The notes below the pieces were generated by a model. The model saw nothing but the letters and a program-made list of their open reading frames with translations, did no database searches and was not told where the DNA came from. Shown piece by piece: positions 16,000-32,613 of a stretch of DNA of 33,979 bases. The DNA is from Myxococcota bacterium. Lineage in GTDB: Bacteria; Myxococcota_A; UBA9042; DTJE01. The translations under genes were made by a program, and so were the position numbers. The DNA is taken from the NCBI GenBank assembly GCA_017997155.1, contig JAGOFO010000009.1, positions 1-33,979 of the forward strand, in the 5' to 3' direction. Each line of letters starts with the position of its first letter. Position 1 is the first letter of the stretch.

Positions 16000-16070
<71 letters not shown>

Positions 16071-16181: not shown

Positions 16182-19100
16182 TCACTCGCAGACGCCGGCC
16201 ACGCAGGTTCCGGACGCGCAGTCGGTTCCGTAGACGCAGTGCTTGCCGGTCACGCAACGGTTGCAGACGCGGCCACCGCAGTCGATGTCGGTCTCGGACT
16301 GATCCATGATCCTGTTCCAGCAGGAAATCACCACGGTGATTCCCTCGTAGGTGCCGAGGTCGGTGCCGATGGTGTTGGTGCCGATTGCGGGACGTTTTCC
16401 GAGCGGCACGCTCGGCGCGAACTGGATGAATCCGCTTTCGGTCGAAACGGGGCCTTCGTATCCGGCGTTGCCGAACGACGGGGTCGCGTTCGTGATCTTG
16501 CAGCCCGCGCAGCAGCCACCGACGTCACAGCAGTAACCAGACTGGCAGAACTGTGAGATACAGTCGGAATCCTCGTTGCACGGCTGCTCGTTCGGCAGGT
16601 CGGCCACGCACTCGGCGGTCGAGTAGGTCGGCGGCAGCGGGTCGCAGTGGGCGTTCGCGTCGCAGACCTCGTCCATTTCGACCGTGGTGCCGGCGTCGTA
16701 GCAGGACGTCGGGCACGGCGGGTCGATCTGTTCCACATCGCCGTTGCAGTACACAGGCAGGTAGTAACCGCAGTCATCGGAAATCTGGCCAAGGTCGTAG
16801 ACACAGGCCGAGTCTTCCGGTGCGTACTCGGAGCCGCACTGTGAGTCAATGCAGGTCGCCAGGGTCTCGGTACCCTGACAGGTCGAGTAATCGCTGCAGG
16901 AAGGCGGTGCCCAGTAACCACCGCGCGGTTCAACGACCGGGCAGTCGGTGTTGCGGTTGCAGCAATCGCCGAAGTCGCAGCAGAAATCGTTCTGGCAGTG
17001 TCCGATACCGCCCGGCAGCCACTGCTGGTTCAGGCAGTCGATGTCTTCCTCGCACGGACCGCCGTTGGGCACGAGCGGGATGCAGATTGCATTGGTCGGG
17101 TTGTTGTCATCCCAGTCGCATCTTGCATCGTCGTCGCACTTGCTGTCATCCGGTACGCCGGCAGTCAGACACGAAGTGAGACACTCGGTGCCACCGCCAT
17201 CCCACGGCTCAAGCCACGTCGCGCCCGGGCAGGTGGACGTCGGGGAAACCGGGCAGAATGCCGGCAGGAACGCGCCACAGTTGTCCGCGAGAGCGCCGCC
17301 GCAACGGCAGTCGTCACGAACGAGCTGATCGCCGCACTTGTTGTCGACGCAGATCGGATCCTTTCTGTGTCCTTCGCACACCAGGTCGCCGGTGATCGGG
17401 TCGGAGACGGTGTCGCAGGATGCCGGGGTCGTGTAGAAGCCCGGACAGGTCGCGGCGCCCTGTTCGTCGCTGGACGGGCAGCAGTCGCCTTCGCCGCAAC
17501 AGTATCCGTTCTGGCTGTGCCCCGAGATGCAGTCCGAATCCTCGTTGGACGCTGCGCCGTTCGGCAGGTCGGCCGTACAGAACATGGCGCGCAGCGACGG
17601 ATCGGGATCCGGGTCGGTGGCAACCACCGGGTCGCAGTGCGCGTTCGCGTCACAGTCGGTGTTGGAGGTGCAGTAGCTGAGGCAGTCCGGCTTGATCTGG
17701 ACGGCCGGGGGCAGCGGGCCCGCGTCGCCGCAGAACATGGAGTAGTAGAAACCGCACCTGTCCGATTCGACCGTGTCGCCGCAAGCCGTGTCGTCCGGAA
17801 CCTCGGTCTTGACACACTGGTTGTCGACGCACCTGGCGTCCCAGCGCTTGCCCTGACAGAAGTTGATCGGAGCGAGCGGGTCGGTCACGTCCGGGTCATT
17901 ACAGAGCGGCTCCTCGCTGTAGACGCCCGCGCCGACACGGTTGCAAATCTGGTCCGCTTCCATCCAGGCCGGATCGATCCACAGCAGATTCGGGTCCTGG
18001 CCGTCCTCGGGCACTACCCACGGTTCGGTCGGACAGCAGTCGCCGCCATCGCAGCAGAAACCGTTCTGGCAGTGCTGGCTGACGCAGTCGAGGTCCTGCT
18101 CGCCAAGGATCATGTCGTCGCAGTCCGCGCCGTTCTCGAGCAAGGTCTGAACACGAAGCTCGAACCTGAAAGGCGTGTAAGCGAACATGCCGCTGTTGGT
18201 GTCCACGCCGACGTAGTAGTCGCCCGGCTGGAGCTGAAGATCGACGACTGCCGGCTGGGTCTCGGTCGTCTCGGCACATCTGAGGGAACCGGCCGCGCAG
18301 GTCGCGCCCGCCGAATCCTTCAGGAACAGCACGAGACGGTTGCCAGGAACCGGCAACAGCTTGATGGTGACGCGCTTGGGCGTCTGAAGATTGAACTTGT
18401 AGATGCGGTCGGGACCATCGAGGCCGCCGCAGCCGGAGTCGTTGACGGAGTTGATCGCGCACTGGAGCGTGCCGTCGACGAACACAGCCGGGTTGACGTC
18501 CTGGTTGCCCAAGTCGATCGGGGTCTCGCAGCGGCTGCCGAGATTCAGCGTCGGGTCATCCGAGCCCTTCATGTACATAGACCAGTCATGAATCGTACCG
18601 GAGTTGCCGGAAAGGACGTCGCAAACCTGGAGCGTCCAGACGCCGTCGATCTGTTCCCCGTTGAGCGCGCACATCGGCTGACCCGACGTCGAGATCCCCG
18701 GGTAGGTGATCGGGAACGAAAGATCGAAGGTGTTGGCGAAGCCGTCGTTGTCGCCGCCGAGGTTGTGCCACAGGCGGTGACGCGCGCCCTGCGGATCGAT
18801 CAGGTCCATCTGAAGGTCTCCGACCGCCTCGTGACTGAGCCTGACCTTGACTTCGATGTCCTTGACGTAGGCGAAGCCGGTGCTGACGGGCAGCGTGATG
18901 CTGGTGCAGCCGTTTACGCCAACGCGCTCGTTGATCGGCAGATCGACGGTTCCACTCGCCGCCTTGTAGCACATGCCATCCGGGCAGGTCGGGTTGCAGC
19001 CGCCGCGCGGGTAGCCATCGATGCCGCCCACGCAGGAGTCCTCGAAGCCGCAGTCGTCGTCGCCGGCGTCGAAGGGATGCTCACCACCGCACGGACCGTT

Positions 19101-22100
19101 GCAGTTCTGCATGCGTTCGTGCTCGCAGTAACCCTGGATGCAGAGGTCCTCGGTGCAGGGATTCGGCTCGTCGCTGCAGTGCGTGCCGTCCGGGAACGCG
19201 CCCCTGACGCAGAGGTGGCCGCCCCAGCCGACGTTCTGGCAGATGCCTTCGTTGCAGTCGTCGCCGGTGTCGGTGCAGTCGACCATCGTGCCGAAGCCGC
19301 ACATACCGTCGGTGCACACGTCATCTGAACAGCCGAGTCCATCGAACTCGCAGGGGGTGCCGTTATCGACGTTCCATTCGGCGCATGTGTCGGCCTGTTC
19401 GTCGCAGTAACCCTCGACGCAAGACGCACAGTAACCATCCGAACAGTCGAAATCCGTCACGGCGCAGTCTCGCGCCGCACCGCCCAGACAGTAGCTGAGA
19501 TCGCCGTCGCCGACCTGGCAGTAGTCCTGAATCGTGCAGAACTGACCGTCCTCGCACGGGGTGTAGTTCAACGCATTCTGCATCTTGCAGCTGCCGTCGA
19601 ACGGATCGCAGACATTACGTCTGCATTCGATGCCGGGATCGTCGCACAGGACCGGTCCATCGGCCAGTTCGCACATCTTGTCGTCGTTGCAGACCCAGAC
19701 GGAACCGTTGCAGAGATTGCCGTCGTCGAGACACGTGGTATCAAGGCCGTCTCGACAGTCGCAGGCAAGAGTCGGGCCTGGCATGCAGATACCCGCACTG
19801 CAGAAGTCGTCCTTGTTGCAGGTCTCGCCGTCGTCGCAGGTCGTGCCGTCTTCCGCCTGAATCGAGATGCACTGATCCAGATCCTCGGAGCAGGTGCCGA
19901 CCATGCAGGTGCCGTTCATGTAACTGCAGTCCACCGGGTCGCCGCCCTGGCATGCGCCGGCCGAGCAGAAGTCGTCACCGGTGCAGAACAGGCCATCGTC
20001 GCATGGCGAGCCTTCGGCCGAATTGACAACCGCGCATTCGCCGGTATCCGCCTGGCAAACGTTCGCCGTGCAGGGATCGTTGCTGGGCTTGCACTGCTTC
20101 ATCGAATGCACGCAGACTCCGCCGGTCGACACGTTCGTGCATGAATCAAGCGTGCAAAGGTTGTTGTCGTCGCACTCCGAGTTACGGAAGCAGCCGGCGC
20201 TTACGACATAGATTGTGAAGTAAACGAGCTGACCGGTCATGCCGGTAACGTTGTCCCATACCTTCAAGGTCCAGTCGCCGGCGACCGGGAGACGACGGTA
20301 ATCGAGCATCTGGCCGGGGCCAACAACGGGATCCCAGTCGTACACGTCGTGGAAGCCGGGGTTAATGCCGCCCTTGGAGTCGCGCAATCTGACGCAGACG
20401 TCCTCGTGGCACAGTTCCGCGCGCAGGTCGCCCGCGGCTTCATGGATCGTGCGAATCTTGACCTTCACCTTGGATACATAGCCCGTCGCGTTGACGTGCA
20501 GGACCTTGGTGAGACCGGCCGGATCATTATCGGGGATGTCGCTGGGCAGGTCGTTGATCCAGTCGTACTCGTAAGGCTGGCCCTCGATCGTGCGGCAGAC
20601 GCACAGCGAATCGCCAGAGAGCGGGTCGATATCGTTGATCGGATCGCAAACGCGATCTTCGGTCTCAGCAACGAGACAGACCTCGTTGCGGAAACAATCG
20701 TCGTGCGTGGAGCACGGTCCGCCACAGGCCTCGATGACCTCATTGACACACTGGCCGGTGGCCGGATCGCAGGAATCGACCGTGCAGGTCAGTCCGTCGT
20801 CGCAACCCCTGGGAGTGAACACGCAGACGCCACCCTCGCAGGCCGCGATCTGACACAGGGAAGCGGGGCAGTCCGCGACGTCGTTGCAGGACACGTCGGC
20901 CAGATCGGCGAACAGATGCCATTCCTCGAACTTGCCGTTCGAAAGGGAAGGATCCGTGTCTTCGGCCACAACAGTCCACGTACCGACCGAGCCCTCGCCG
21001 TCGAAAGCGGTCAGCGGAGTGGCCGAGGGAACGCCGATGTCGTAGGTTTCATAGATATTGGGCTTCGCGTCGGTGAAGCTGCTGTTACGCACGATCGCCG
21101 AGGTGCCCGACGGGCTGGTGACGGTCAGCTTCACGTCGCCACGGTACTCGTGGGCGACGCCGATCTTGAAGTTGGAGTTGGCAATCGCGCCGTTGGCCGC
21201 CACGTTGACCGCGCATGACGCCATGACCGGAGCCGCGCCGAAGTCGGTCTGACAGTCGGCATCAAACCTGAATCCGGGGATGTCGACGCAGTAACCGACC
21301 GACTTGTCGCAGGCCTGGTTGATGCCGCAGGACAGGGTCCCGTCGGGCCGGTACTTGTCGTTCTCGCACGGGATGCAGTCCTGGACCGGGAGGTTGGCGC
21401 ACTGGCTCGCGTTACAGTAGTCGGTCGTGCATACCTCGAAGTCCTGACAGTTTTCGACGCTGGTACAGGGAGGATAGCCGTTCTCGAGGAAGTTCAGATA
21501 CATCAACATGAGCTGGTTGGTGGTCATGGAACCGCTGTAGACGTAGGCGCCGAAAGGCAGCGACGCGCCGATGGTTCTGTAGACTCCACCCTCGATCGCG
21601 CCTTCGTAGGACACGGCCAGGGCAAACGGGTCGTTCGGATTCGAATTGCGGATGATTTCGCGGCCACCGCCCTCGGAGACATGGCGCAGCTTGTCAATCC
21701 ATGCGTTGACACCGGCGTCCTGGGCCACGGCGAACTCAGCACCGTAGAGGAAGTTCTTGCCGGAGACCGGACCCGCCACGCGAACGGTTCCGCCGTCCGA
21801 GGTGGCCTCGGTCTTGAAGTACGGATGCAGTACCGTTTCCGGCTGCGAACCGACCGGCGTGTAGAAGAATTCGCCGCCTTCGAGGTAGACGCGGCCACCG
21901 ACGTCCAGGTAAAGCCGCAGGCGGGCGGCGTCCATCGGCGTCACCCTGGCGTAGCGGCCCTTCACGCCGAGAACCGCGAAAACGCCGTCATATCTGGTCA
22001 GATCGGGAACCATCGAAAGGTTGGTGATGATCTGCGCCTTACGACCGGCGTCCTTGATCGCCTGCTTGATCATGACGGCGCTGGGGTCCTCCATGCCGTT

Positions 22101-24728
22101 CGGCGACCACACGATGTAGCCGTCCTCGAGCAGAACCGTCAGGTCGAATTTCGTCAACGACTCGAACGGCGAGTGCAGCGGGACTGTAGGTTCCGAACTG
22201 TATTCATCCTGGGACACAAGGCCCATCCGGTAGGAACCGGCGGTTTCCTCGTTGCAGGACGGCTTAATGTCGATACCGCAGTAGTAGTAACCGTTGACCG
22301 TGATCGGCACTCCGCAGACCAGCTGAACCATGCCGGGCAGCGTGTCGCAGAATCCGGACTGGCCGATATCGGGAGCACCGAATGTGAACACCGGCCGATC
22401 GAGCGGCTCATTGTCCAGTCTGGAAAGCGGGCTCCCGTAGAAACCCCAGGTCTGGTGGCTGGCGTCACGGTCGTAGTAACACATGAACAGCCTGGTCCAG
22501 TCACAGGATCCGACGGTGAGCGCGGGCATCTCGCCGGGAGCGGCGGACTCGGCTATCAGCGTGCCGGACTGAGTGTTGCAGGGGGTGCCATCCTGGGGAC
22601 ATCTGTAGGCCTTGGCCTTGAGGAACTGGTTGCTCACGCCGGCCGCGACCTTCACGTCGTCGATCTGCCAGGAATCGATCATGTAGGTCGTTCCCGGGGC
22701 GGTGTCGATCATGAAACCGACCTTCAGGGTGGGCGAGAACTTGATCGCTTCCGGGATCTCGGCCGACATCAGGGAGTATTCGATGTCCGCATTGGTGGTG
22801 GTCTCCCACACGAGATATCCAGGGTTGAACGAGTTGTTCGCGCTGGCCACGACCTTCAGCCTGACGTACTGGCCGGGAGCCGCGTGCTTGTATGACATCC
22901 TCCACTGAACGGTGGTTTTCTTCAGTGTCTCGTTAAAGGTGTCCCGGGCGGCGGTCATGCCGTCGAGCTGCGGGGTGATGGCCACGCTCTTGACCACTAT
23001 CGTGGGCAGCGGATCCCAGGTGAAGGCCAGGTGGGTGTCGGGACCAAGTTCATCCGTTTCGCCGTTGAGCTTCCAGTGGGATACCGCGTTCGTCTGGAAA
23101 TCCTGGAAAGTCCAGCCGATTTCCTGGAAGGATTCGGTTCCGTCGAACGGCTGGATGTAGGGCAGGTCGACCTTGCAGTTCGGGTTGACCGGGTGCGTGC
23201 ACACGCGGCGCCCTGAAATCGGTTCAAACACGCAGCGTTCGAGCGTACACGGATTGCCCTCGTCGGGGCAGTCCGGATGGTCCTCGCAGCAGTCGGAGGT
23301 GTTCCATGAGTGACGGCAGCTGTTAAGGGCGCACCTGTCGATTGTGCAGACGTCGCCGTCGTCACACTGAATGTCCTCGGTGCAGCAGTCAGCCCGCATC
23401 TTTTCGTGGAGACACTGATGACCCCAGCAGGAATCGTATGTGCAGTAGTCGCCGTCGTCACATTCGGCGTTCAGGTTGCAGCAGTTTTCAACCGGCTCGC
23501 CGGCCGAACACAGATTGGATGAAAGGTCACAGAAGTCCGGGGTGCAGTACTTCTTGTCGTCGCACTGGGCATTGGCGAACGCGGCGCGCTCGATTTCACT
23601 GGCCCACGGAAGTCCGGTGACCGGATTGACGGAGGCAGGCGCGTAGCAGCAACCCGGGTTGATGTTGTACGCGGAATACACACAGCGGTTGTTGGTGCAG
23701 TAGTCGGCGTTGCACGGATTCTCGTCGATACAGTCGGAAACGTCGTGGCAGCAGCCGTCAATCTCGGTGTTGGTACACGTGAGCGTGTTCACGTTGCAGA
23801 AGTCCTGGGTGCATACCTCGGAGTCGTTGCAGTCGGCGTTAACCAGACAGCAACCGGGCACGCGGGGATTCTCGCAGACGCCAACCGAGCAGGCATCGTA
23901 GGTGCAGACATTTCCGTCCTGGCACGTCGGATGATTCTGTTCGCGGTAGCCGTCGTTCTGGGCGCCCGGGGTTCCCTTGTCACCGGAACCGAACACCGTG
24001 GAGGCAACCACGAAGTCCAGGTCGCCCCACTCGGCGGGATCGGCCGGGAACTCGGGGAAGAACAGCGCTTCGTTTTCAAGCGAGTAGTGCCTGAGGCCGA
24101 TCGCGGCGCCGGCCGGCGCCGATGTCGTGTATCCCTGCATGGGACCGTACACGACCCTGTCGACCTCGACACCATCCGGGTCAAGCAGCAGCACCGAGTC
24201 TCCGCCGTTGATCAAGGCGAAGTTCGTAAGCTGGTATGCGCAGGTGACGCCACCGTTGGTGGACTGATTGGCGTTGCGGCACAGCACCAGGTAACCACCG
24301 GAGGGAATCACCAGCTGACCAACAATCTGGTGGACGCCGGGGCCGTCTTCGGCGATGAACCAGCCTGCCAGATCGACCGGCGCGGTGGTCGGGTTGTACA
24401 GCTCAATCCATTCGCCAGCGGCATCGCCGACCGCGACCGGGTCGATCAACAGTTCGTTGATAACGACGTGATTGACCGCAGGCTCGCAGGTCCTGGCTTC
24501 ACGCGGCACGAGCTGGCGATCCTCGAGAGACGCCTGCTCTTCCGGACGAACGGTTTCGGGACCCTTCGTCTCGGGCGCGCCCAGTTCGGACACGCCGGCA
24601 TCGGTTGCAGTCGTCGCTGTCATCGCGCCGACGACGGCGGCGTTGTCAACGCCGTTTTCCGAACAACCGGCGATGGCCCCGGCCACAAAAACGGCCAGAA
24701 CCGCAAGACTGATGGGATGGAGCTTCAT
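16182..24728 (-). CDS. Giant modular Cys-rich surface lipoprotein
   Basis: The 2848-residue protein starts at ATG 24728 (AAGGAGG just upstream; an in-frame ATG at 24776 lacks a signal peptide). The lipobox is IAGC, Cys22. Approximate modules: lamin-tail domain 83-257; EGF-like 'CDDGxxCTxDxC' repeats 264-516; MAM/laminin-G-like domain 519-693 ending WQIDDVKV; a segment with a glutamine-amidotransferase-like alpha/beta part near 890-1010; P-domains at 1168-1275, 1389-1511 and 1922-2051 separated by more Cys repeats; a pre-peptidase C-terminal (PPC)-like domain 2062-2203; four modules with CQNGYCCxxGDCC-type cores 2203-2743; and a final SETDIDCGG...CASGTCVAGVCE module. I count about 227 cysteines (8%), which implies oxidative folding outside the cytoplasm. 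No protease motif or MYXO-CTERM anchor is evident. A role in adhesion or as a surface scaffold is inferred. Confidence 0.93.
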   Translation of the reverse strand: MKLHPISLAVLAVFVAGAIAGCSENGVDNAAVVGAMTATTATDAGVSELGAPETKGPETVRPEEQASLEDRQLVPREARTCEPAVNHVVINELLIDPVAVGDAAGEWIELYNPTTAPVDLAGWFIAEDGPGVHQIVGQLVIPSGGYLVLCRNANQSTNGGVTCAYQLTNFALINGGDSVLLLDPDGVEVDRVVYGPMQGYTTSAPAGAAIGLRHYSLENEALFFPEFPADPAEWGDLDFVVASTVFGSGDKGTPGAQNDGYREQNHPTCQDGNVCTYDACSVGVCENPRVPGCCLVNADCNDSEVCTQDFCNVNTLTCTNTEIDGCCHDVSDCIDENPCNADYCTNNRCVYSAYNINPGCCYAPASVNPVTGLPWASEIERAAFANAQCDDKKYCTPDFCDLSSNLCSAGEPVENCCNLNAECDDGDYCTYDSCWGHQCLHEKMRADCCTEDIQCDDGDVCTIDRCALNSCRHSWNTSDCCEDHPDCPDEGNPCTLERCVFEPISGRRVCTHPVNPNCKVDLPYIQPFDGTESFQEIGWTFQDFQTNAVSHWKLNGETDELGPDTHLAFTWDPLPTIVVKSVAITPQLDGMTAARDTFNETLKKTTVQWRMSYKHAAPGQYVRLKVVASANNSFNPGYLVWETTTNADIEYSLMSAEIPEAIKFSPTLKVGFMIDTAPGTTYMIDSWQIDDVKVAAGVSNQFLKAKAYRCPQDGTPCNTQSGTLIAESAAPGEMPALTVGSCDWTRLFMCYYDRDASHQTWGFYGSPLSRLDNEPLDRPVFTFGAPDIGQSGFCDTLPGMVQLVCGVPITVNGYYYCGIDIKPSCNEETAGSYRMGLVSQDEYSSEPTVPLHSPFESLTKFDLTVLLEDGYIVWSPNGMEDPSAVMIKQAIKDAGRKAQIITNLSMVPDLTRYDGVFAVLGVKGRYARVTPMDAARLRLYLDVGGRVYLEGGEFFYTPVGSQPETVLHPYFKTEATSDGGTVRVAGPVSGKNFLYGAEFAVAQDAGVNAWIDKLRHVSEGGGREIIRNSNPNDPFALAVSYEGAIEGGVYRTIGASLPFGAYVYSGSMTTNQLMLMYLNFLENGYPPCTSVENCQDFEVCTTDYCNASQCANLPVQDCIPCENDKYRPDGTLSCGINQACDKSVGYCVDIPGFRFDADCQTDFGAAPVMASCAVNVAANGAIANSNFKIGVAHEYRGDVKLTVTSPSGTSAIVRNSSFTDAKPNIYETYDIGVPSATPLTAFDGEGSVGTWTVVAEDTDPSLSNGKFEEWHLFADLADVSCNDVADCPASLCQIAACEGGVCVFTPRGCDDGLTCTVDSCDPATGQCVNEVIEACGGPCSTHDDCFRNEVCLVAETEDRVCDPINDIDPLSGDSLCVCRTIEGQPYEYDWINDLPSDIPDNDPAGLTKVLHVNATGYVSKVKVKIRTIHEAAGDLRAELCHEDVCVRLRDSKGGINPGFHDVYDWDPVVGPGQMLDYRRLPVAGDWTLKVWDNVTGMTGQLVYFTIYVVSAGCFRNSECDDNNLCTLDSCTNVSTGGVCVHSMKQCKPSNDPCTANVCQADTGECAVVNSAEGSPCDDGLFCTGDDFCSAGACQGGDPVDCSYMNGTCMVGTCSEDLDQCISIQAEDGTTCDDGETCNKDDFCSAGICMPGPTLACDCRDGLDTTCLDDGNLCNGSVWVCNDDKMCELADGPVLCDDPGIECRRNVCDPFDGSCKMQNALNYTPCEDGQFCTIQDYCQVGDGDLSYCLGGAARDCAVTDFDCSDGYCASCVEGYCDEQADTCAEWNVDNGTPCEFDGLGCSDDVCTDGMCGFGTMVDCTDTGDDCNEGICQNVGWGGHLCVRGAFPDGTHCSDEPNPCTEDLCIQGYCEHERMQNCNGPCGGEHPFDAGDDDCGFEDSCVGGIDGYPRGGCNPTCPDGMCYKAASGTVDLPINERVGVNGCTSITLPVSTGFAYVKDIEVKVRLSHEAVGDLQMDLIDPQGARHRLWHNLGGDNDGFANTFDLSFPITYPGISTSGQPMCALNGEQIDGVWTLQVCDVLSGNSGTIHDWSMYMKGSDDPTLNLGSRCETPIDLGNQDVNPAVFVDGTLQCAINSVNDSGCGGLDGPDRIYKFNLQTPKRVTIKLLPVPGNRLVLFLKDSAGATCAAGSLRCAETTETQPAVVDLQLQPGDYYVGVDTNSGMFAYTPFRFELRVQTLLENGADCDDMILGEQDLDCVSQHCQNGFCCDGGDCCPTEPWVVPEDGQDPNLLWIDPAWMEADQICNRVGAGVYSEEPLCNDPDVTDPLAPINFCQGKRWDARCVDNQCVKTEVPDDTACGDTVESDRCGFYYSMFCGDAGPLPPAVQIKPDCLSYCTSNTDCDANAHCDPVVATDPDPDPSLRAMFCTADLPNGAASNEDSDCISGHSQNGYCCGEGDCCPSSDEQGAATCPGFYTTPASCDTVSDPITGDLVCEGHRKDPICVDNKCGDQLVRDDCRCGGALADNCGAFLPAFCPVSPTSTCPGATWLEPWDGGGTECLTSCLTAGVPDDSKCDDDARCDWDDNNPTNAICIPLVPNGGPCEEDIDCLNQQWLPGGIGHCQNDFCCDFGDCCNRNTDCPVVEPRGGYWAPPSCSDYSTCQGTETLATCIDSQCGSEYAPEDSACVYDLGQISDDCGYYLPVYCNGDVEQIDPPCPTSCYDAGTTVEMDEVCDANAHCDPLPPTYSTAECVADLPNEQPCNEDSDCISQFCQSGYCCDVGGCCAGCKITNATPSFGNAGYEGPVSTESGFIQFAPSVPLGKRPAIGTNTIGTDLGTYEGITVVISCWNRIMDQSETDIDCGGRVCNRCVTGKHCVYGTDCASGTCVAGVCE

Positions 24729-24824
24729 AGCGCCTCCTTGACCGGTGATGACACCTGCCACGCAAACATTGCACACCCGCCGCGACCAAGATCAGGACGA
24801 CCTGACAAAAAGCCAATCCTTCCG

Positions 24825-25647: not shown

Positions 25648-26457
25648 TCAGCGGGCTTCCGTTGATCCTGCCGGAACCGCCGGCACCACGAACAATCTAC
25701 CGTCGGTCTCCTTGATTCCGATATAAAAATCGCAACCGAAAACCTTCCTGAGGACTGGATAAAGCATGACCTGGTCAGGGCTGCCGAATGCCTCGACGCG
25801 ACCGTCGCTGACCAGCATCAGGCGGTCGCAGACCAGCAAGGCCACGTTCAGGTCGTGAATGGCCGAGACGACGCAGAGTCCTGTTTCGCGCGCCCTGGCC
25901 GACAGACCACCGAGGATCCGAAGTGAGTGGGACACGTCGAGGTTGGCGGTCGGTTCGTCAAGCAGGAGAAGTCTTGAACCCTGGGCCACCGCGCGCGCAA
26001 TCAGAACGCGCCGCTGCTCACCGGCGGAAAGCTCCGTGTATTGCCTGCCCGCGAACGCGGCGACATCGGCGAATTCCATCGCGTCGCGAACAGCCTCGCG
26101 ATCACGGGCGGTTTCGAATACACCCGACAGATGGCAGGTCCTTCCCAGCGCGACCAGTTCGCGAACGGTCAGAGGGAATCCCGCGTGTAGAGAAGCAGAC
26201 AGAAAAGCGGCCAGTCGCGCGGCCTCGCGGCGGGGAATGGCGGCCGGATCACGCGCGAACACCCTGACCTGCCCGGAATCCGGCCTGATAAGACCGGCAG
26301 CCAGACGCAGTATCGTCGACTTGCCCGCGCCGTTCGGGCCGATGACGCCTATCAATTCACCCGGATGAAACTCGGCCTGGATTGTGTCGGCGGCAGGAAG
26401 CGACGAGCCCGGCCAGGAGAACGTGACCGAATCAAACCGCAGCGGGCAATCACTCAT
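25648..26457 (-). CDS. btuD: Cobalamin ABC transporter ATPase
   Basis: This 269-residue cytoplasmic ATPase powers the B12 importer. It has Walker A GPNGAGKS (40-47), the signature LSAGE (143-147), Walker B LLLLDEPT (163-170) and the switch His201 in SAIHDLN. It is of the FecE/BtuD type found with FecCD-type permeases. One oddity: the Q-loop, normally LPQ or LSQ, reads FLSAS, so Ala88 replaces the conserved Gln. Its ATG overlaps the permease stop in ATGA (26454-26457). It is the last gene of the riboswitch-led operon. Assignment to B12, not iron or haem, rests on the riboswitch and the neighbours. Confidence 0.92.
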   Translation of the reverse strand: MSDCPLRFDSVTFSWPGSSLPAADTIQAEFHPGELIGVIGPNGAGKSTILRLAAGLIRPDSGQVRVFARDPAAIPRREAARLAAFLSASLHAGFPLTVRELVALGRTCHLSGVFETARDREAVRDAMEFADVAAFAGRQYTELSAGEQRRVLIARAVAQGSRLLLLDEPTANLDVSHSLRILGGLSARARETGLCVVSAIHDLNVALLVCDRLMLVSDGRVEAFGSPDQVMLYPVLRKVFGCDFYIGIKETDGRLFVVPAVPAGSTEAR

Positions 26458-27455
26458 CTATTGCCCCTCCGCAGCAGCCACACGAAAACCGGGCCTCCAA
26501 CCAGGGCCGTGAGCACGCCGACCGGCGCCTCGGTCTCGAAGACAGGGAACAGCAGCCTGGTCGCCACGTCAGCCAGCACCAGGAATGCCGCGCCGGTAAA
26601 CATGCTGGCCGGAAGTGCCCACCGGTGATCGGATCCGACCAGCACCCTCACCCCGTGCGGGACGATCAAACCAACGAAACCGATCATCCCGGACACCGAG
26701 ACGGCCGAGGCGACCAGCAGCGAACCGGCGGCGAGCGCCACCCTGGTCACCCTGTGGGTATCCACTCCCACGGAAGCGGCGTCCTCATCGCCGACCGTGA
26801 GCGCGTTCAGGGCCGGGGAGATCATGAACAGAGTGACTCCACCAGCTACCGTCATGGCAACGGTCATGCCAATCGCCCATGGTCCCCTCACGTCGGACGA
26901 CAGCGTGCCCATCAGCCACATCAGCATCTCCTGCGCCTTCTGCGCCTTGACGACCGACTTGATGAACATGATGACCGCTGATGCGAAGGTGTTAAAGATG
27001 ACGCCGACCAGCAGAACCTCCCAGACATTGATGCGCCCCCGCGAGTCGCGGGAAAGCCACGAGGTCGCGGCAATTGACAGGAGCCCGAACACAAAGGCGA
27101 ACAGAGGGACACCGGCCTGTCCAAGAATGACCGAAACCGGCAGGATCATGGCCAGCGTGCCGCCGACCGCCGATCCACCCGCCACACCGATTACGTACGG
27201 GTCGGCCAGGGGATTTCTGAGCACCGCCTGAAATGCCATGCCAGCGGCGGCGAGGGACGCTCCCACCGAGGCGCCGATGATCGTTCTTGGAAGCCGTTCA
27301 CGAAGAAGGATGGCCCGATCGAGCGGAGAATCTCCGGTGACGGCCCCGAGCAGATCTATCGTGGTCGCCCCGAACGCGACGGACAGAACCATGGCGCCAA
27401 GGGCGCCGATTGCCATCAAGACCAGGACGAGGGTTCTGTCGGCTCGGATCTTCAA
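26454..27455 (-). CDS. btuC: Cobalamin ABC transporter permease (FecCD family)
   Basis: This 333-residue inner-membrane permease has about 9-10 helices and the family signature GMAFQAVLRNPLADPYVIGVAGGSAVG-like segment near residues 72-98, followed by conserved GFVGLIVPH near the C-terminal third (the part that contacts the ATPase). It would form the BtuC dimer that passes B12 from BtuF to the cytoplasm. The start is TTG 27455: it overlaps the btuF stop as TTGA and is preceded by GGAGGG at 5 nt, so a non-ATG start is well supported. Its stop overlaps btuD as ATGA. Confidence 0.93.
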   Translation of the reverse strand: MKIRADRTLVLVLMAIGALGAMVLSVAFGATTIDLLGAVTGDSPLDRAILLRERLPRTIIGASVGASLAAAGMAFQAVLRNPLADPYVIGVAGGSAVGGTLAMILPVSVILGQAGVPLFAFVFGLLSIAATSWLSRDSRGRINVWEVLLVGVIFNTFASAVIMFIKSVVKAQKAQEMLMWLMGTLSSDVRGPWAIGMTVAMTVAGGVTLFMISPALNALTVGDEDAASVGVDTHRVTRVALAAGSLLVASAVSVSGMIGFVGLIVPHGVRVLVGSDHRWALPASMFTGAAFLVLADVATRLLFPVFETEAPVGVLTALVGGPVFVWLLRRGNR

Positions 27456-28309
27456 CGTTTCCCTCCACGATCCAGGACGATCCGGATCTCTGCGGCCAGA
27501 GCGGCGGCGGCAGCCACGGCGTCAGGGCCGGGCAACAGGATCGCCTCGTCCGGGATGTGAACCACCGGAGCATCGATTCCGGAGTCGGTCAGGATCCCGG
27601 CCGAAGGTTCCCCGCCCGCGATCCCGTCTATGATCAACTCGGGGCGGGCCTTCAGAACCTGCTCAATCGACCACGTCGGAAACGTGACGGTAGCTGAATC
27701 AACCACGTTTTCAAGTCCCATCGCGGACATCAACTGACCCTGGAAGGACGATGGACCGGCGACGACCAGGGGTCTTGTCCCTACCACGAACAACGTGCGA
27801 CGACGTGGCATGCCGGTCGCGAGCGAGTCGAGCCCTCGATCGAAGTCGTCCACGAGCCGGGCGGCCTCGGCATCGGTTCCCGTCGCCTGGCCGATCGCCA
27901 GGATCGATCGCCTGACGTCGTCGAAGTCCTCGAACTCGATGGGCAGAAAAGATACTCCCGCCGGATGAAGAATCTCTACAAGACGGCCCTTGAGAACCGC
28001 GGGAGATCCGATGACGACGTCCGGCCGCGTCTCGGCTACCGCCTCCACCGAGACATCCAGTATCCCGCCAACCCTCGGGATGGCCCTGGCAGCCTCGGGT
28101 CTTTCGCAGTAACGCGTTACCCCGACAAGGCGATCACCGGCGCCAAGACGGAACACGATCAGTGTGGCGGAAGGTATCAACGACACGATCCGGGCGTTGG
28201 CGGGGGTTGATTCGGCACGGGGAGCGGGTCGGACTCGTTCCCCGCAGGAGCATGCCAGAAACGCGCACAGCAGCAGTGTCGAGCGAAACGTCATGCGCCG
28301 GATCGTCAT
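27452..28309 (-). CDS. btuF: Cobalamin-binding periplasmic protein, lipoprotein form
   Basis: I use ATG 28309 (285 residues), which overlaps the previous stop as ATGA and has GGGAGG 4-5 nt upstream; the frame runs further up but without a signal peptide there. A signal peptide ends in FLACSC, so one of the two Cys is probably lipidated. The mature part has class III binding-protein features: ARIVSLIPSAT at the first strand, VGVTRYCERP (compare YCDYP in BtuF), VGGILDVSVEAV and PDVVIG. It would capture B12 released by the outer-membrane receptor and deliver it to BtuCD. Related proteins bind haem or siderophores; the riboswitch and the YC motif favour B12. Confidence 0.9.
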   Translation of the reverse strand: MTIRRMTFRSTLLLCAFLACSCGERVRPAPRAESTPANARIVSLIPSATLIVFRLGAGDRLVGVTRYCERPEAARAIPRVGGILDVSVEAVAETRPDVVIGSPAVLKGRLVEILHPAGVSFLPIEFEDFDDVRRSILAIGQATGTDAEAARLVDDFDRGLDSLATGMPRRRTLFVVGTRPLVVAGPSSFQGQLMSAMGLENVVDSATVTFPTWSIEQVLKARPELIIDGIAGGEPSAGILTDSGIDAPVVHIPDEAILLPGPDAVAAAAALAAEIRIVLDRGGKR

Positions 28310-29481
28310 TCGACCTCCCGAAGCGAGCCGTCGGTGGTGTCGACCGCCACCAGCCTGTTCAACTTCAGACACGAAACCCAGGCGGTCACGCCTCGAGCCG
28401 ACGGTTCCAGCGCAAGGTCCCACGGGCTGCAGTTGACAGGCAGCGCCAGCGTCCGGACATCGCCCGTGACGGTGTCCACCACAGACAGGCTGTTGCTGCC
28501 CGAATTGACCACGTACAGATTCCCGTCCAGCACCTTCATCCGGTTAGGGGTCAGCATGTTGCGGGCGAGCTTCCTGACTCCGGCGGCCGGACCGGCGGCC
28601 GTGTCGAACGAAAGCACCTGGTTTGCAAGCGCCATCAGCAGATAGGTCGTGGTGCCGTCGAACTCGATATCGAGAAGCCCGTCCAGCAGGCCGGTCTGTC
28701 CCACAACGATCGGCCCCCACGGTTCATCGACCACGGACCATCCGACAGGATCCAGGAGCAGCACCTTGTCATCGTTGAAAAGTCCGACCATCAACAGGCC
28801 GTCCGGTCCCGGCGAGACAACCGTCGTATTCTGGACGTCCCCGGGCCCCAGGAACACCGGATTCGAGGCGCCGCGAACAACAGTTCCGGACTCCAGGTCC
28901 ACAACGAACAGAGCCGCGACGGTGCCGCTCCCGACCCAGGCCAGTCCATCCTTCACGACAATCCCCGAAGGATACCCCACGAGAGTCCCCTCGAGGTTCG
29001 GCAGCGGAATCACGACCGAAGGCGAAACGGCCGTATCGATGCCGTCCAGGTCGAAAGCACACAAACCGCCTGAGGTCACTGGACGGACTTCGCCGTCAAA
29101 TGACGTCAGCCCTGAACAGAGAACCCACAGACGATCGCCGGAGACCACGGCCTCCTGCGGATTCTCGAAGGGAAGCCCGATCATGTTCAGGACGACCGCT
29201 TCCGAAGCGTCGACGACTGTCAGGAATCCTTCTCCGTACGCAAGATAGGCGCCCTGGTACGCAAAGTTTGCGTTTGTAACAAAGACTCGATCATTCCAGA
29301 AGGCGACCCCCTCGGGCTGGGAAAAACCGCGATCGGCCGGCAAGCCCGGAACGTCCGTTTCAGCCTGGTCCCGAAGTCCGCCTTCATCGCCTCCGACCTG
29401 TTCCTGGGCGCATCCTAACCAGACGGTGGCCGACAAGACCGCCAGACTCAGAAACCTGTTCATCATGCGCTTTTTCCTCAT
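28306..29481 (-). CDS. Beta-propeller lipoprotein of the B12 operon, BtuG-like candidate
   Basis: This 391-residue protein has a signal peptide ending in the lipobox WLGC (Cys24 from the first ATG). The rest has the YncE/NHL-style propeller pattern: a repeated strand set with turns such as PEGVAFWNDRVFVTN, LTVVDASEAV, PSGIVVKDGLAWVG, LFVVDLESGTVV, MKVLDGNLYVVNSGSNSLSVVD and LNRLVAVDTTDG. It lies between btuB and btuF and overlaps both by 4 nt. In Bacteroides, BtuG is a surface propeller lipoprotein that binds B12 and sits on BtuB; position, anchor and fold match that role here. Homology to BtuG itself is not shown. ATGs at 29466 and 29463 are alternative starts. Confidence 0.85.
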   Translation of the reverse strand: MRKKRMMNRFLSLAVLSATVWLGCAQEQVGGDEGGLRDQAETDVPGLPADRGFSQPEGVAFWNDRVFVTNANFAYQGAYLAYGEGFLTVVDASEAVVLNMIGLPFENPQEAVVSGDRLWVLCSGLTSFDGEVRPVTSGGLCAFDLDGIDTAVSPSVVIPLPNLEGTLVGYPSGIVVKDGLAWVGSGTVAALFVVDLESGTVVRGASNPVFLGPGDVQNTTVVSPGPDGLLMVGLFNDDKVLLLDPVGWSVVDEPWGPIVVGQTGLLDGLLDIEFDGTTTYLLMALANQVLSFDTAAGPAAGVRKLARNMLTPNRMKVLDGNLYVVNSGSNSLSVVDTVTGDVRTLALPVNCSPWDLALEPSARGVTAWVSCLKLNRLVAVDTTDGSLREVE

Positions 29482-31394
29482 ATGTCTATCCTGACCGTGC
29501 CGAAAGCGGAAAAGCCGGGCAGCGGCTGCTGAAGGAAGTCGACGGCGTCGGTCTTGTTCGTGACATTCATGAAATCCAGGCTCAGGGTCAGCGAAGGAAT
29601 GGGTTTGACCAGCAGCCTCACGTCCAGCCGGAACCTGTCTTCTTCCATCACCGACTCGAACGCGTCAAGGTAGAAACCGGACTGCCAGGAAGGCTGCAGC
29701 AGAAGCTTGAACGGACCGCCCGAGAAGGCCAGTTCGCCGATCACCGTGTGTTCCGGCCTGGCCGGAAGCCACATACCCGTGGACGAGACCGTGGCGTCAA
29801 GCCATGTATAGGCGACGGATGCCCTGAACCACCTGTACTCCACGGCAGCGGACGTCTCGACTCCCCTGATGACGGCGCGTCCAGAGTTGGAGGCGCGGAT
29901 GACGAATGCGGAGACAGGCGCGAACGTGATCATGTTGAAACCGTAGTTCTCGAAATACGAGGCCTTCAGATTCCACCACGATCCGCGCCCGGCCTCGATT
30001 CCGAAGTCCCAGGCAAGCGAGTCCTCCGGCTCCAGATCCGGGTTGCCCTGGACGAATCCGCTGTCGAAATAGAGTTCCTCGAAGGTTGGCAGTCTGAACG
30101 AGCGCCCGACGTTCGCTGTCAGCCGCACGAGAGAATGCGGTTCGTACCAGATCCCGAGGGACGGGACCGGCCTGAAACCGAACCCGGAGTCGTATTCGAG
30201 TCTCAGATCGAAAGCGACCTGCCAGTTGTCCTCCGGCTCTCCCGCGACGAAACCGACGATCCCGGCCAGGGTTCCCCTGCTTGGCCAGTAATCGGACTGG
30301 CCAGCCCTGCGGACGCTGCCGCGGTCGTATCCGCCGTCAGCCCCGAAACGGAACGCGAAGCGTTTCCACGGCGCGGCAAGCGTGGAGAAACGGGCGCCGA
30401 AACCGCCGGACATCATCATCGTGTCCTGTGGAGCTCCCATGTTCGGATCAGAGTCACGGTATCCGAAAGCCAGGAACCTGCCATACAGATCGGCCGAAGT
30501 GGCGCCGCGCCTGCCGAACAGCCGTGGTCCCCGCCAGCCGACACCCGCGACGACCCTCGTGTCATCACCAAGTGCGGTCGTAGACGGAAACTGCTCCATG
30601 CCGGCGATCTCGCGGTCCACCCTGAAGACCTCGACCAGCGCCTGAAAACTGTGACCGTCAAGCGGTTCCGACTCAACCTTCAGCATACCCTCGAAGGCTG
30701 TTGACGCATTGTGCAGGCGATCCCTGCGCGCCCCGTTGGAATCGGTGAACCGGAACCCGCCGCCGGAGTGGGAGAACCCGGCCGCGGCCATCAAGCCGGT
30801 CACGGAGGCGTCGTCCGCGAACACGTGAGCGTGCGAGGCCTTCAATCGAACGGTCGAGAATGATCCGCCCGACAACAACGCCGTGGTCCTGTCTCCGTTG
30901 TCCAGGATGGAGGGAGTCCTGGCGTCTACCGTACCGCCGACCGCGTCGCTTCCCCTGACCGCTCCCAGTCCGCCCCTGGACACGTCGAGCGCGTCGAGCG
31001 GAAGCAGGCCGAGCGAGTTCAGGTCGGCCCCGCCCATGAAAACCGAGTTCAAGGGAATACCGTCGAGTGCCAGAAGCGTGGATCTGGGGTCGGCCCCCCG
31101 GATGGATATCGACACCGCCTGGCCGGGGCCACCGTTGTCGCGCACCATCACCGCCGGGGCGGTTTTGACCGCCGCGGACGGGCCGGCGGGCGATTCGAGG
31201 GCGGCCTGATCCGTGACCGTCGTGGTTCCGGGGCTCTCCCTGGCGAGAGGGTCGTCGCTCACGGGATCGCCAAAAACATCAATCCCGGGAACATCAATCG
31301 TGACAGGTTGTTCCTGCGCCGAAGCGGACGTGATCAGCAACATGCAGACGAGCGCCGGAAAAGGCGGGATGAAACGGAAGATACCTGTAGACAT
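29478..31394 (-). CDS. btuB: TonB-dependent outer-membrane cobalamin receptor
   Basis: I use ATG 31394 (638 residues); a longer frame from 31505 would begin inside the riboswitch. A signal peptide is cleaved after ASA (residue 26). A TonB-box-like stretch (VTIDVPGIDV) follows. The plug domain contains VSISIRGADPRSTLLALDGIPLN and GLGAVRGSDAVGGTVDA. The rest is an aromatic-rich barrel with the receptor hallmark GRSFRLPTFEELYFDSGFVQGNPDLEPE. The protein imports vitamin B12 across the outer membrane with TonB energy; the substrate is assigned from the upstream cobalamin riboswitch and the btuFCD neighbours. It ends in strand GTVRIDI, without the terminal Phe. Its stop overlaps the next gene as ATGA. 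Confidence 0.93.
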   Translation of the reverse strand: MSTGIFRFIPPFPALVCMLLITSASAQEQPVTIDVPGIDVFGDPVSDDPLARESPGTTTVTDQAALESPAGPSAAVKTAPAVMVRDNGGPGQAVSISIRGADPRSTLLALDGIPLNSVFMGGADLNSLGLLPLDALDVSRGGLGAVRGSDAVGGTVDARTPSILDNGDRTTALLSGGSFSTVRLKASHAHVFADDASVTGLMAAAGFSHSGGGFRFTDSNGARRDRLHNASTAFEGMLKVESEPLDGHSFQALVEVFRVDREIAGMEQFPSTTALGDDTRVVAGVGWRGPRLFGRRGATSADLYGRFLAFGYRDSDPNMGAPQDTMMMSGGFGARFSTLAAPWKRFAFRFGADGGYDRGSVRRAGQSDYWPSRGTLAGIVGFVAGEPEDNWQVAFDLRLEYDSGFGFRPVPSLGIWYEPHSLVRLTANVGRSFRLPTFEELYFDSGFVQGNPDLEPEDSLAWDFGIEAGRGSWWNLKASYFENYGFNMITFAPVSAFVIRASNSGRAVIRGVETSAAVEYRWFRASVAYTWLDATVSSTGMWLPARPEHTVIGELAFSGGPFKLLLQPSWQSGFYLDAFESVMEEDRFRLDVRLLVKPIPSLTLSLDFMNVTNKTDAVDFLQQPLPGFSAFGTVRIDI

Positions 31395-31425
31395 GCCCCT
31401 TGTCCCCGAGGAGTACAGTCCATCG

Positions 31426-31605
31426 TTTCCGGGCAGGTCTCCTGGCTTGGGGGGAACGGCCGTGGCCGAAGGTTCTTCCGCCTTCCCGGCAGGTGCCAGT
31501 GGCATTCCGGAAGAACCCTGGAAAATCCTCCCCCGTCACAGTGGCGGGACCGCGCGGGAATCACACCCGCTTCCCTCTCCGGGACGCATCGCGTCCACCC
31601 GGAAA
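31426..31605 (-). promoter_or_regulatory. Cobalamin (adenosylcobalamin-type) riboswitch
   Basis: The leader of btuB holds the class hallmarks in order: GGGAAGCGGGTGTGATTCCC (31558-31577), CCCGCCACTGT (31538-31548), ATGCCACTGG (31496-31505) and the B12 box AGCCAGGAGACCTGCCC (31431-31447). The outer stem P1 is TTTCCGGG at 31598-31605 with CCCGGAAA at 31426-31433, 8 bp perfect. A GGACGC/GCGTCC hairpin lies just inside. No U-run terminator follows; the B12 box is only 37 nt from the btuB start codon, so control of ribosome access is more likely than termination. High cobalamin should switch off the whole operon. Confidence 0.97.
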
Positions 31606-31681
31606 GAACGCAGCAAAGGTCTCACAGACGGACGATTATTTCAAGGTGGAGGGAAAACGGGACGGGGACGGATGCCGGAAA

Positions 31682-32515
31682 CTACGGGCAGGGGCAGGCC
31701 TGGTTGCACGCGACCGTGACAGGCGAACCACCGACCGGGCAGTTGTTGATCTCGCACTTGTTGTTGTACGTGTTGCCGTCGGCGCCGCACAGCGGAGCGG
31801 AGGCCATTCCCTCGCACGGCTCGCAAACGATGATGCATTCACCGAAATTGGAGAACATCGTGCGCTCGATCGTGACGCAGCCCTTGGCCGCCTTCAACGC
31901 GCAGAGATCGTCGAATTCGGTGACGCCGTCGATGTCGCAGACCTTGCCGCAATTCTGAATCGGCTGCGACTGGGCATCGCACTCGTCGACGAGGTCGCAG
32001 GGACACTCGTCGCAACTGGTGCGGCGCAGCAGGAAGTTGGTTTCACCGGTGATCAGGCATTCAATATCGCCTTCGCATCCGGGGCAGTCCGGCGCGTCGG
32101 CGCACAGCGCGCACGCGGCGCATGAGGCGCTGTTGTAGGTGACCTCGTCGATGCCGCAGACAGGTTCGTTGACCGTGGTGTCGCAGGGGCACATCGGCGG
32201 CACGTTCGTGTCGATACCGGTGTCCTCGACGACATCCGTCTTAACGTCGTCCTCGACATCAACATCGACATTGACGTCCTGGACCGTGTCCTGAACCGTC
32301 GTATCCTGACCCTCGTCCCGGACGGTGTCGTCCTTTTCACCAAGATCCTTGGGGGTATCGGGAACGAATGTGTCCTGGACGTCTTCGGGGACTATCGTGT
32401 CTTCGACACCCGTATCGTTGCCGGTATCCAGCGGGGGGGGGTTATCGTTACCACAGGCAATGGCGAAGGACGCCACGGCAGCCAGCACGACGAAAACGCT
32501 TGTTTTTCTGGACAT
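31682..32515 (-). CDS. Triple-Kazal-like lipoprotein
   Basis: I use ATG 32515 (277 residues; GGAGGG 5 nt upstream). The signal peptide ends in a lipobox AIAC (Cys21). An Asp/Thr/Val linker spans about 22-107. Three Cys-rich modules follow. Module 1 (about 108-153) has PVCGIDEVTYNSASC; module 2 (about 167-228) has KVCDIDGVTEFDDLC; module 3 (about 229-277) has PLCGADGNTYNNKC, a clear Kazal core. Kazal domains inhibit serine proteases; modules 1 and 2 are divergent. A surface inhibitor guarding against foreign or own proteases is plausible. A run of nine C lies just after the lipobox. It precedes the B12 riboswitch on the same strand but is probably a separate unit. Confidence 0.87.
   Translation of the reverse strand: MSRKTSVFVVLAAVASFAIACGNDNPPPLDTGNDTGVEDTIVPEDVQDTFVPDTPKDLGEKDDTVRDEGQDTTVQDTVQDVNVDVDVEDDVKTDVVEDTGIDTNVPPMCPCDTTVNEPVCGIDEVTYNSASCAACALCADAPDCPGCEGDIECLITGETNFLLRRTSCDECPCDLVDECDAQSQPIQNCGKVCDIDGVTEFDDLCALKAAKGCVTIERTMFSNFGECIIVCEPCEGMASAPLCGADGNTYNNKCEINNCPVGGSPVTVACNQACPCP
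32433..32441 (-). repeat. C9 homopolymer tract inside the Kazal lipoprotein gene
   Basis: Nine consecutive C on the coding strand (codons for Asn-Pro-Pro-Pro at residues 25-28) lie directly behind the lipobox. Slippage by one base here would shift the frame right after the signal peptide and abolish the protein, as in phase-variable surface genes. The assembled sequence is in frame. Confidence 0.7.
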
Positions 32516-32613
32516 CAAATCCCTCCGGATACGTTGTTCACAACAGTCGAGACCGCCCCGAAACCCGGGTTTATCCATGGAATGCCGACAAACATTTTAA
32601 TGTAATTGGCTTT

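Follow-up and report, generated by a model that had tools for sequence, protein, structure and literature searches.

A predicted BtuG-like propeller lipoprotein is linked to vitamin B12 uptake genes in Myxococcota

The closest known system to the one described here is BtuG, represented in Bacteroides thetaiotaomicron by BtuG1, BtuG2, and BtuG3 (PDB 3DSM, a homolog, 8BMX, 8OKV, and 8BLW). BtuG2 is located on the cell surface, and the lipoprotein export signal that places BtuG there is specific to Bacteroidota (PMC6143338). Corrinoid binding by BtuG2 occurs in a funnel and involves Trp194, Trp272, and Tyr316 (BtuG2 residues). BtuG1 consists of a BtuG propeller joined to a second domain, BtuH (PMC8941943, PMC10404256). 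In the study that defined BtuG, Wexler et al. applied a BlastP cutoff of 1e-10 to 313 gut genomes and found the protein in Bacteroidetes only (PMC6143338), a survey that could not have seen the Myxococcota genomes analyzed here.

Several other systems share some of these properties. XusB, which caps XusA (PMC13142918), is also a propeller lipoprotein paired with a TonB-dependent transporter, but it differs from the protein analyzed here in its iron-siderophore ligand, its membership of the DUF4374 family, and its lack of a cobalamin link. YncE of Escherichia coli and generic YVTN/NHL propellers belong to the same repeat class and are among the PDB matches of our family profile, a general resemblance only. 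The DUF4465 proteins BtuJ1 and BtuJ2 are beta-jellyrolls, unlike the propeller, and no DUF4465-type Pfam match was found in the proteins examined. Because exported B12-binding proteins of this family are known from several phyla, Myxococcota included (PMC13398666), B12 capture has some precedent outside Bacteroidota. A literature search that lacked most subscription papers returned no report of BtuG-type propellers in Myxococcota, and as far as the searched literature shows, a propeller-BtuB pair outside Bacteroidota is new.

The DNA stretch analyzed (33,979 nucleotides, called the window below) is an entire contig of a 2.64-Mb genome that is 87% complete. An earlier note had described a propeller gene lying between btuB and btuF under a cobalamin riboswitch and overlapping each neighbor by 4 nt. 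The open reading frame coordinates and the riboswitch score confirm this arrangement, in which the minus strand reads riboswitch, btuB, propeller lipoprotein, btuF, btuC, and btuD:

31415..31617, minus strand: cobalamin riboswitch aptamer (RF00174), operon leader; full-length model match by cmscan at 115.9 bits, E 1.3e-28 (gathering score 31.5)
29478..31394, minus strand: btuB-type TonB-dependent outer-membrane receptor, 638 aa from the likely ATG; plug (PF07715) and barrel (PF00593)
28306..29481, minus strand: propeller lipoprotein, 391 aa, BtuG-like, ATG start and TGA stop; open reading frame, NHL/YVTN repeat matches, and AF2 model
27452..28309, minus strand: btuF-type periplasmic binding protein, Peripla_BP_2; PF01497 at 8.9e-24, BtuF model PRK03379 at 1.8e-21, below cutoff
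26454..27455, minus strand: btuC-type permease, FecCD, TTG start; PF01032 at 2.7e-76, best NCBIfam match the BtuC model at 3.3e-64, below cutoff
25648..26457, minus strand: btuD-type ABC ATPase, ABC_tran; PF00005 at 7e-26, best NCBIfam match a corrinoid ABC ATPase model at 4e-63, below cutoff

All four gene junctions of the operon overlap by 4 nt: the propeller frame shares 4 nt with the end of btuB (29478) and with the start of btuF (28309), and the btuF/btuC and btuC/btuD overlaps lie at 27452-27455 and 26454-26457. The btuB frame is open upstream to 31505, and the start listed at that position falls within the riboswitch; translation probably begins at the ATG at 31394. The best NCBIfam match of the btuB product is TIGR01779 (TonB-B12) at 2.7e-34, below its cutoff. 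Since the NCBIfam B12 models score below their curated cutoffs, the names given to the neighboring genes rest jointly on best match, gene order, and the riboswitch. The btuF-type protein has a probable lipoprotein signal. Three further features were seen on the minus strand of the window: a 298-aa lipoprotein-like frame at 31682-32578, which ends ∼65 bases upstream of the riboswitch and by eye contains Cys-rich stretches resembling Kazal-type domains; a 2864-aa frame downstream of the operon at 16182-24776 with, by eye, many Cys-rich repeats; and a tRNA gene at 16000-16070 (RF00005, 63.3 bits).

In family searches against Pfam and NCBIfam, the propeller protein gave NHL and YVTN-repeat matches only. 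An AF2 model of the mature protein, built from a 30-sequence alignment, has a pLDDT of 92 and a pTM of 0.90 and contains seven four-stranded blades, with hairpin insertions in the B-C loops of blades 1 and 2. The parts of the protein map to the window as follows:

29410..29412, minus strand: codon of the lipid-attachment Cys24, after W-L-G; this Cys is invariant in the alignments
29344..29409, minus strand: disordered acidic tether between lipid anchor and propeller, mature residues 2-23; pLDDT below 50 for mature residues 1-22
28309..29325, minus strand: seven-bladed beta-propeller domain; 28 blade strands and 2 hairpins by DSSP on the AF2 model, with blade mapping

The lipid-site Cys is present in 21/21 sequences of the first alignment and throughout the 30-sequence alignment. 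In the window copy, the lipobox (W-L-G-C) is non-canonical, and most relatives have canonical boxes. The propeller fold and lipoprotein character proposed from the sequence thus both held. As pointers to a B12-binding face, conservation by face and loop charge were both considered and rejected as weak. Mean conservation is higher in the B-C loops (0.47) than in the C-D loops (0.35), but the loops D-A (0.40) and A-B (0.41) are equal to each other, so any conserved ligand face is weakly indicated at most. Both propeller faces carry negative loop charges.

The earlier note had suggested a search for the same gene order in other genomes. Among 53 genomes, comprising the window's own and those of relatives, a protein search detected the propeller family in 23. 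For a scan of the genome collection, a wide alignment gave no conserved stretch, and a narrower one was used. All 39 family-level Myxococcota loci examined, which were annotated using the genes of the window and profiles derived from these, sit at B12 genes, and the phylum search listed further strong matches beyond these. RF00174 is present at 29 of the 39 loci and btuB is nearby at 33; btuF, btuC, and btuD are found at 20, 18, and 20, respectively. The order btuB-propeller, often continuing into btuF, btuC, and btuD, is conserved under cobalamin riboswitches, and the linkage between propeller and B12 genes is far beyond chance. Where the propeller lies away from btuF it is still usually beside btuB, and the btuF-type proteins of these loci are often lipoprotein-like. 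The Myxococcota setting inferred from the DNA alone is also supported: the named records, which cover part of the family, are Myxococcota, Myxococcales, and "Deltaproteobacteria" metagenome-assembled genomes, with one labeled Oligoflexales, and one weaker family match lies in Ignavibacteriales.

Individual loci show variants of the arrangement. At L046:7314-9203 (plus strand), a cobalamin riboswitch is followed directly by the propeller gene and then by btuF; no btuB was found on the contig. BtuF and BtuC are apparently fused in a 651-aa frame at L041:5989-7944 (minus strand; btuF match 1-261, btuC match 354-647). Tandem propellers occur as two adjacent genes at L042:7427-9957 (plus strand), and one 823-aa frame at L026:231-2702 (minus strand) has two propeller matches. 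Several matches fall in open frames of 1000-1100 aa, and a BtuB-propeller fusion was considered for these but rejected: btuB and propeller lie in different frames, and the matches reflect long G+C-rich open frames. The two genes share a frame at loci L033, L040, and L045.

The window protein has in common with BtuG a seven-bladed propeller, a lipid anchor, and a gene beside btuB under a cobalamin riboswitch, and some of its relatives carry a second domain fused to the propeller, as BtuG1 does with BtuH. Unlike BtuG, it has no identifiable Bacteroidota lipoprotein export signal, and its loops lack the dipole described for BtuG2 (PMC6143338). Its direct sequence similarity also falls short of the BlastP 1e-10 level used to define BtuG: a phmmer search of the window propeller against the PDB found no BtuG. 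A family profile matched BtuG1 at 4.6e-5 (rank 13, behind generic YVTN propellers) and E. coli YncE (3vgz) at 6.2e-10. When the propeller model was compared with known structures by Foldseek, 8okv ranked 29 and 3dsm ranked 39, with a TM score for BtuG of 0.62/0.70 at best, among many unrelated propellers. In the structural comparison with BtuG that had been suggested, the fold is compatible but BtuG is not singled out, and we rejected the fold search as proof of BtuG kinship because generic propellers outrank BtuG. Comparison with the PDB alone would not have revealed shared ancestry with BtuG.

The order of the blades also bears on descent. A second Myxococcota form (family f19 and a few others) has profile positions 300-395 preceding positions 45-300. 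The window-type alignment was cut into seven blade profiles, each of which was placed separately in nine of these permuted proteins; the order 6-7-1-2-3-4-5 was complete in six, and the remaining three each had one weak blade out of place. In most Bacteroidota-group propellers (a label used because Ignavibacteriales fall in the Bacteroidota/Chlorobiota group), blade 1 was placed clearly at about residues 156-200, with blade 7 before it and blade 2 after it. The blade 7, 1, and 2 profiles thus mostly have the same order and similar positions in Bacteroidota btuB-propellers as in the permuted Myxococcota form, a match limited to the blades that could be placed, since blades 3 to 6 were mostly too weak. 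As far as blades could be placed, the linear blade order of the window-type protein is circularly permuted relative to these Bacteroidota-type propellers. An alignment of blades 1-2 shows a common pattern, including N-P and C-S-G motifs, that extends from the window protein through Ignavibacteriota to Bacteroidota and is looser in B. thetaiotaomicron BtuG1, which shares this signature.

Profile searches provided a ranking. An earlier profile, A5, contained an Ignavibacteriales member and was searched in the phylum group of the same genome (G284), so its ranking was partly circular, and the ranking was repeated with a profile of permuted Myxococcota proteins only (A7) in 248 Bacteroidota-group genomes. 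The first six matches of A7 were btuB-adjacent propellers, the first two of them from G284, and mixed matches followed. Among the Bacteroidota-group loci taken from the A5 ranking, 18/20 adjoin a btuB-type gene, and a cobalamin riboswitch was present at 12/12 of those tested by Rfam; at locus L061, none was found at the Rfam gathering threshold. A recent transfer between phyla was considered and set aside: a midpoint-rooted BtuB tree, which held only loci chosen for having propellers, splits Myxococcota from Bacteroidota-group rows at 100/100 and speaks only against recent exchange among these rows. Based on the blade order, the ranking by a Myxococcota-only profile, and the blade 1-2 signature, common descent with BtuG appears likelier than convergence. 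Of the two origins that the earlier note had left open, the blade-order and ranking results favor descent with circular permutation.

A second lipoprotein module recurs at these loci. Elsewhere in the window's genome (L002:1501-3032), a second cobalamin riboswitch precedes a lipoprotein gene at L002:1782-3032, the C-terminal part of which (L002:2388-3029) matches NF033170, the LIC_13355 family, at 134.6 bits (cutoff 120). A weak LIC13354-like stretch precedes this domain, so that likenesses of two Leptospira families are joined in one protein. In one family (L096, L098, L100, L101, L104, and L111), an LIC_13355-type domain is joined to the C terminus of the propeller; in L036-L038, it lies between riboswitch and btuB. 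At 12 of 20 further loci with such a domain or a weaker likeness, RF00174 lies within the fetched stretch; the chance of a cobalamin riboswitch in a random stretch of ∼3.5 kb is well under 1% (two per 2.64 Mb in the window's genome). One Bacteroidota-group genome has, at L177:3051-7474 (plus strand), a cobalamin riboswitch with three proteins encoded in succession behind it: one that is LIC_13355-like, then a btuB-type receptor, and then a propeller.

The second module had no sequence match among PDB chains and no Pfam family. Its AF2 model (pLDDT 96.5, pTM 0.92) had as top Foldseek PDB match 8blw_B, B. thetaiotaomicron BtuG1 with its BtuH domain, at a probability of 0.99. This match, listed for the chain that holds both propeller and BtuH, is weak (E 3.2e-3, TMq 0.46), and most of the lower-ranked matches are CBM32/discoidin-type folds. 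We therefore treat the predicted likeness to BtuH as a lead rather than an identification. For LIC_13355, a Leptospira lipoprotein, binding to laminin and plasminogen has been reported, with B12 unmentioned (PMC11891782). We put forward tentatively, as a possibility short of probable, that a BtuG-type propeller, which can be circularly permuted, and an LIC_13355-type domain form a linked pair of lipoprotein modules for B12 capture, either ancestral in or widespread across Myxococcota, Ignavibacteriota, and Bacteroidota, and that the LIC_13355 domain is an unrecognized cobamide-binding family that also occurs in Leptospira.

The reading we prefer, with a probability of about two in three, is that the propeller is an outer-membrane lipoprotein of B12 scavenging that acts as a cobamide-binding lid on BtuB and shares BtuG ancestry, with its blades permuted. 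At low intracellular B12, the riboswitch would permit expression of the operon. The propeller, held by its lipid and flexible acidic linker, would bind cobamides in the funnel on one of its faces and pass them to the neighboring BtuB, probably as a BtuG-like lid, and BtuF-BtuCD would then import the vitamin. For the propeller itself, the steps that we infer are binding of B12, exposure at the surface, and capping of or docking to BtuB. The genome encodes eight B12-binding-domain matches over cutoff and one weak GATase_3 match, and no CbiD match was found in the 87% of it that is represented, which is in keeping with scavenging; the organism is likely to depend on outside B12.

A lid of this kind could also have arisen if a generic YVTN/NHL propeller had been recruited independently beside btuB. 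Convergence of this sort is compatible with a capture-lid function, and it has a parallel in the propeller lids of other TonB-dependent receptors, such as XusB for siderophores (PMC13142918); similarity to BtuG in pairwise comparison is at the repeat level, and the fold search does not point to BtuG in particular. We nevertheless consider it unlikely, because the blade-specific signature and the partly conserved blade order are shared with Bacteroidota btuB-propellers and because, among the propellers of 248 genomes, a Myxococcota-only profile ranked btuB-propellers first.

Two further explanations concern where the protein acts and on what. A YncE-like lipoprotein facing the periplasm from the outer membrane, receiving B12 from BtuB or helping BtuF, would account for the profile match to YncE, for the lack of an identifiable surface-export signal, and for the position of btuF directly after the propeller, as well as for the lipoprotein-like btuF products. 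This placement seems to us quite improbable, since the nearest family relationship indicated is to Bacteroidota btuB-adjacent propellers, among which BtuG2, the member that has been studied, is located at the surface (PMC6143338), and since a propeller without a neighboring btuF usually remains beside btuB. It is very unlikely, in our judgment, that the propeller serves a different ligand as a surface lipoprotein, or that it is a structural accessory with only the operon in common: the loop charges do lack the BtuG dipole and no residue-level B12 contact was mapped, but B12 genes or a riboswitch accompany the propeller at every one of the 39 loci, across several families, including the locus whose first gene after the riboswitch is that of the propeller.

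The BtuG-like capture strategy is probably wider than the phylum in which it was described. If the Myxococcota propellers do act as BtuG-like lids, high-affinity B12 capture by a propeller on BtuB would be no speciality of the gut or of Bacteroidota, and the architecture would either predate phylum boundaries or have crossed them. Which blades must face BtuB is a question for which the circular permutation offers a natural experiment. The link to LIC_13355 suggests a concrete function for a Leptospira lipoprotein family that is now described by host-protein binding only.
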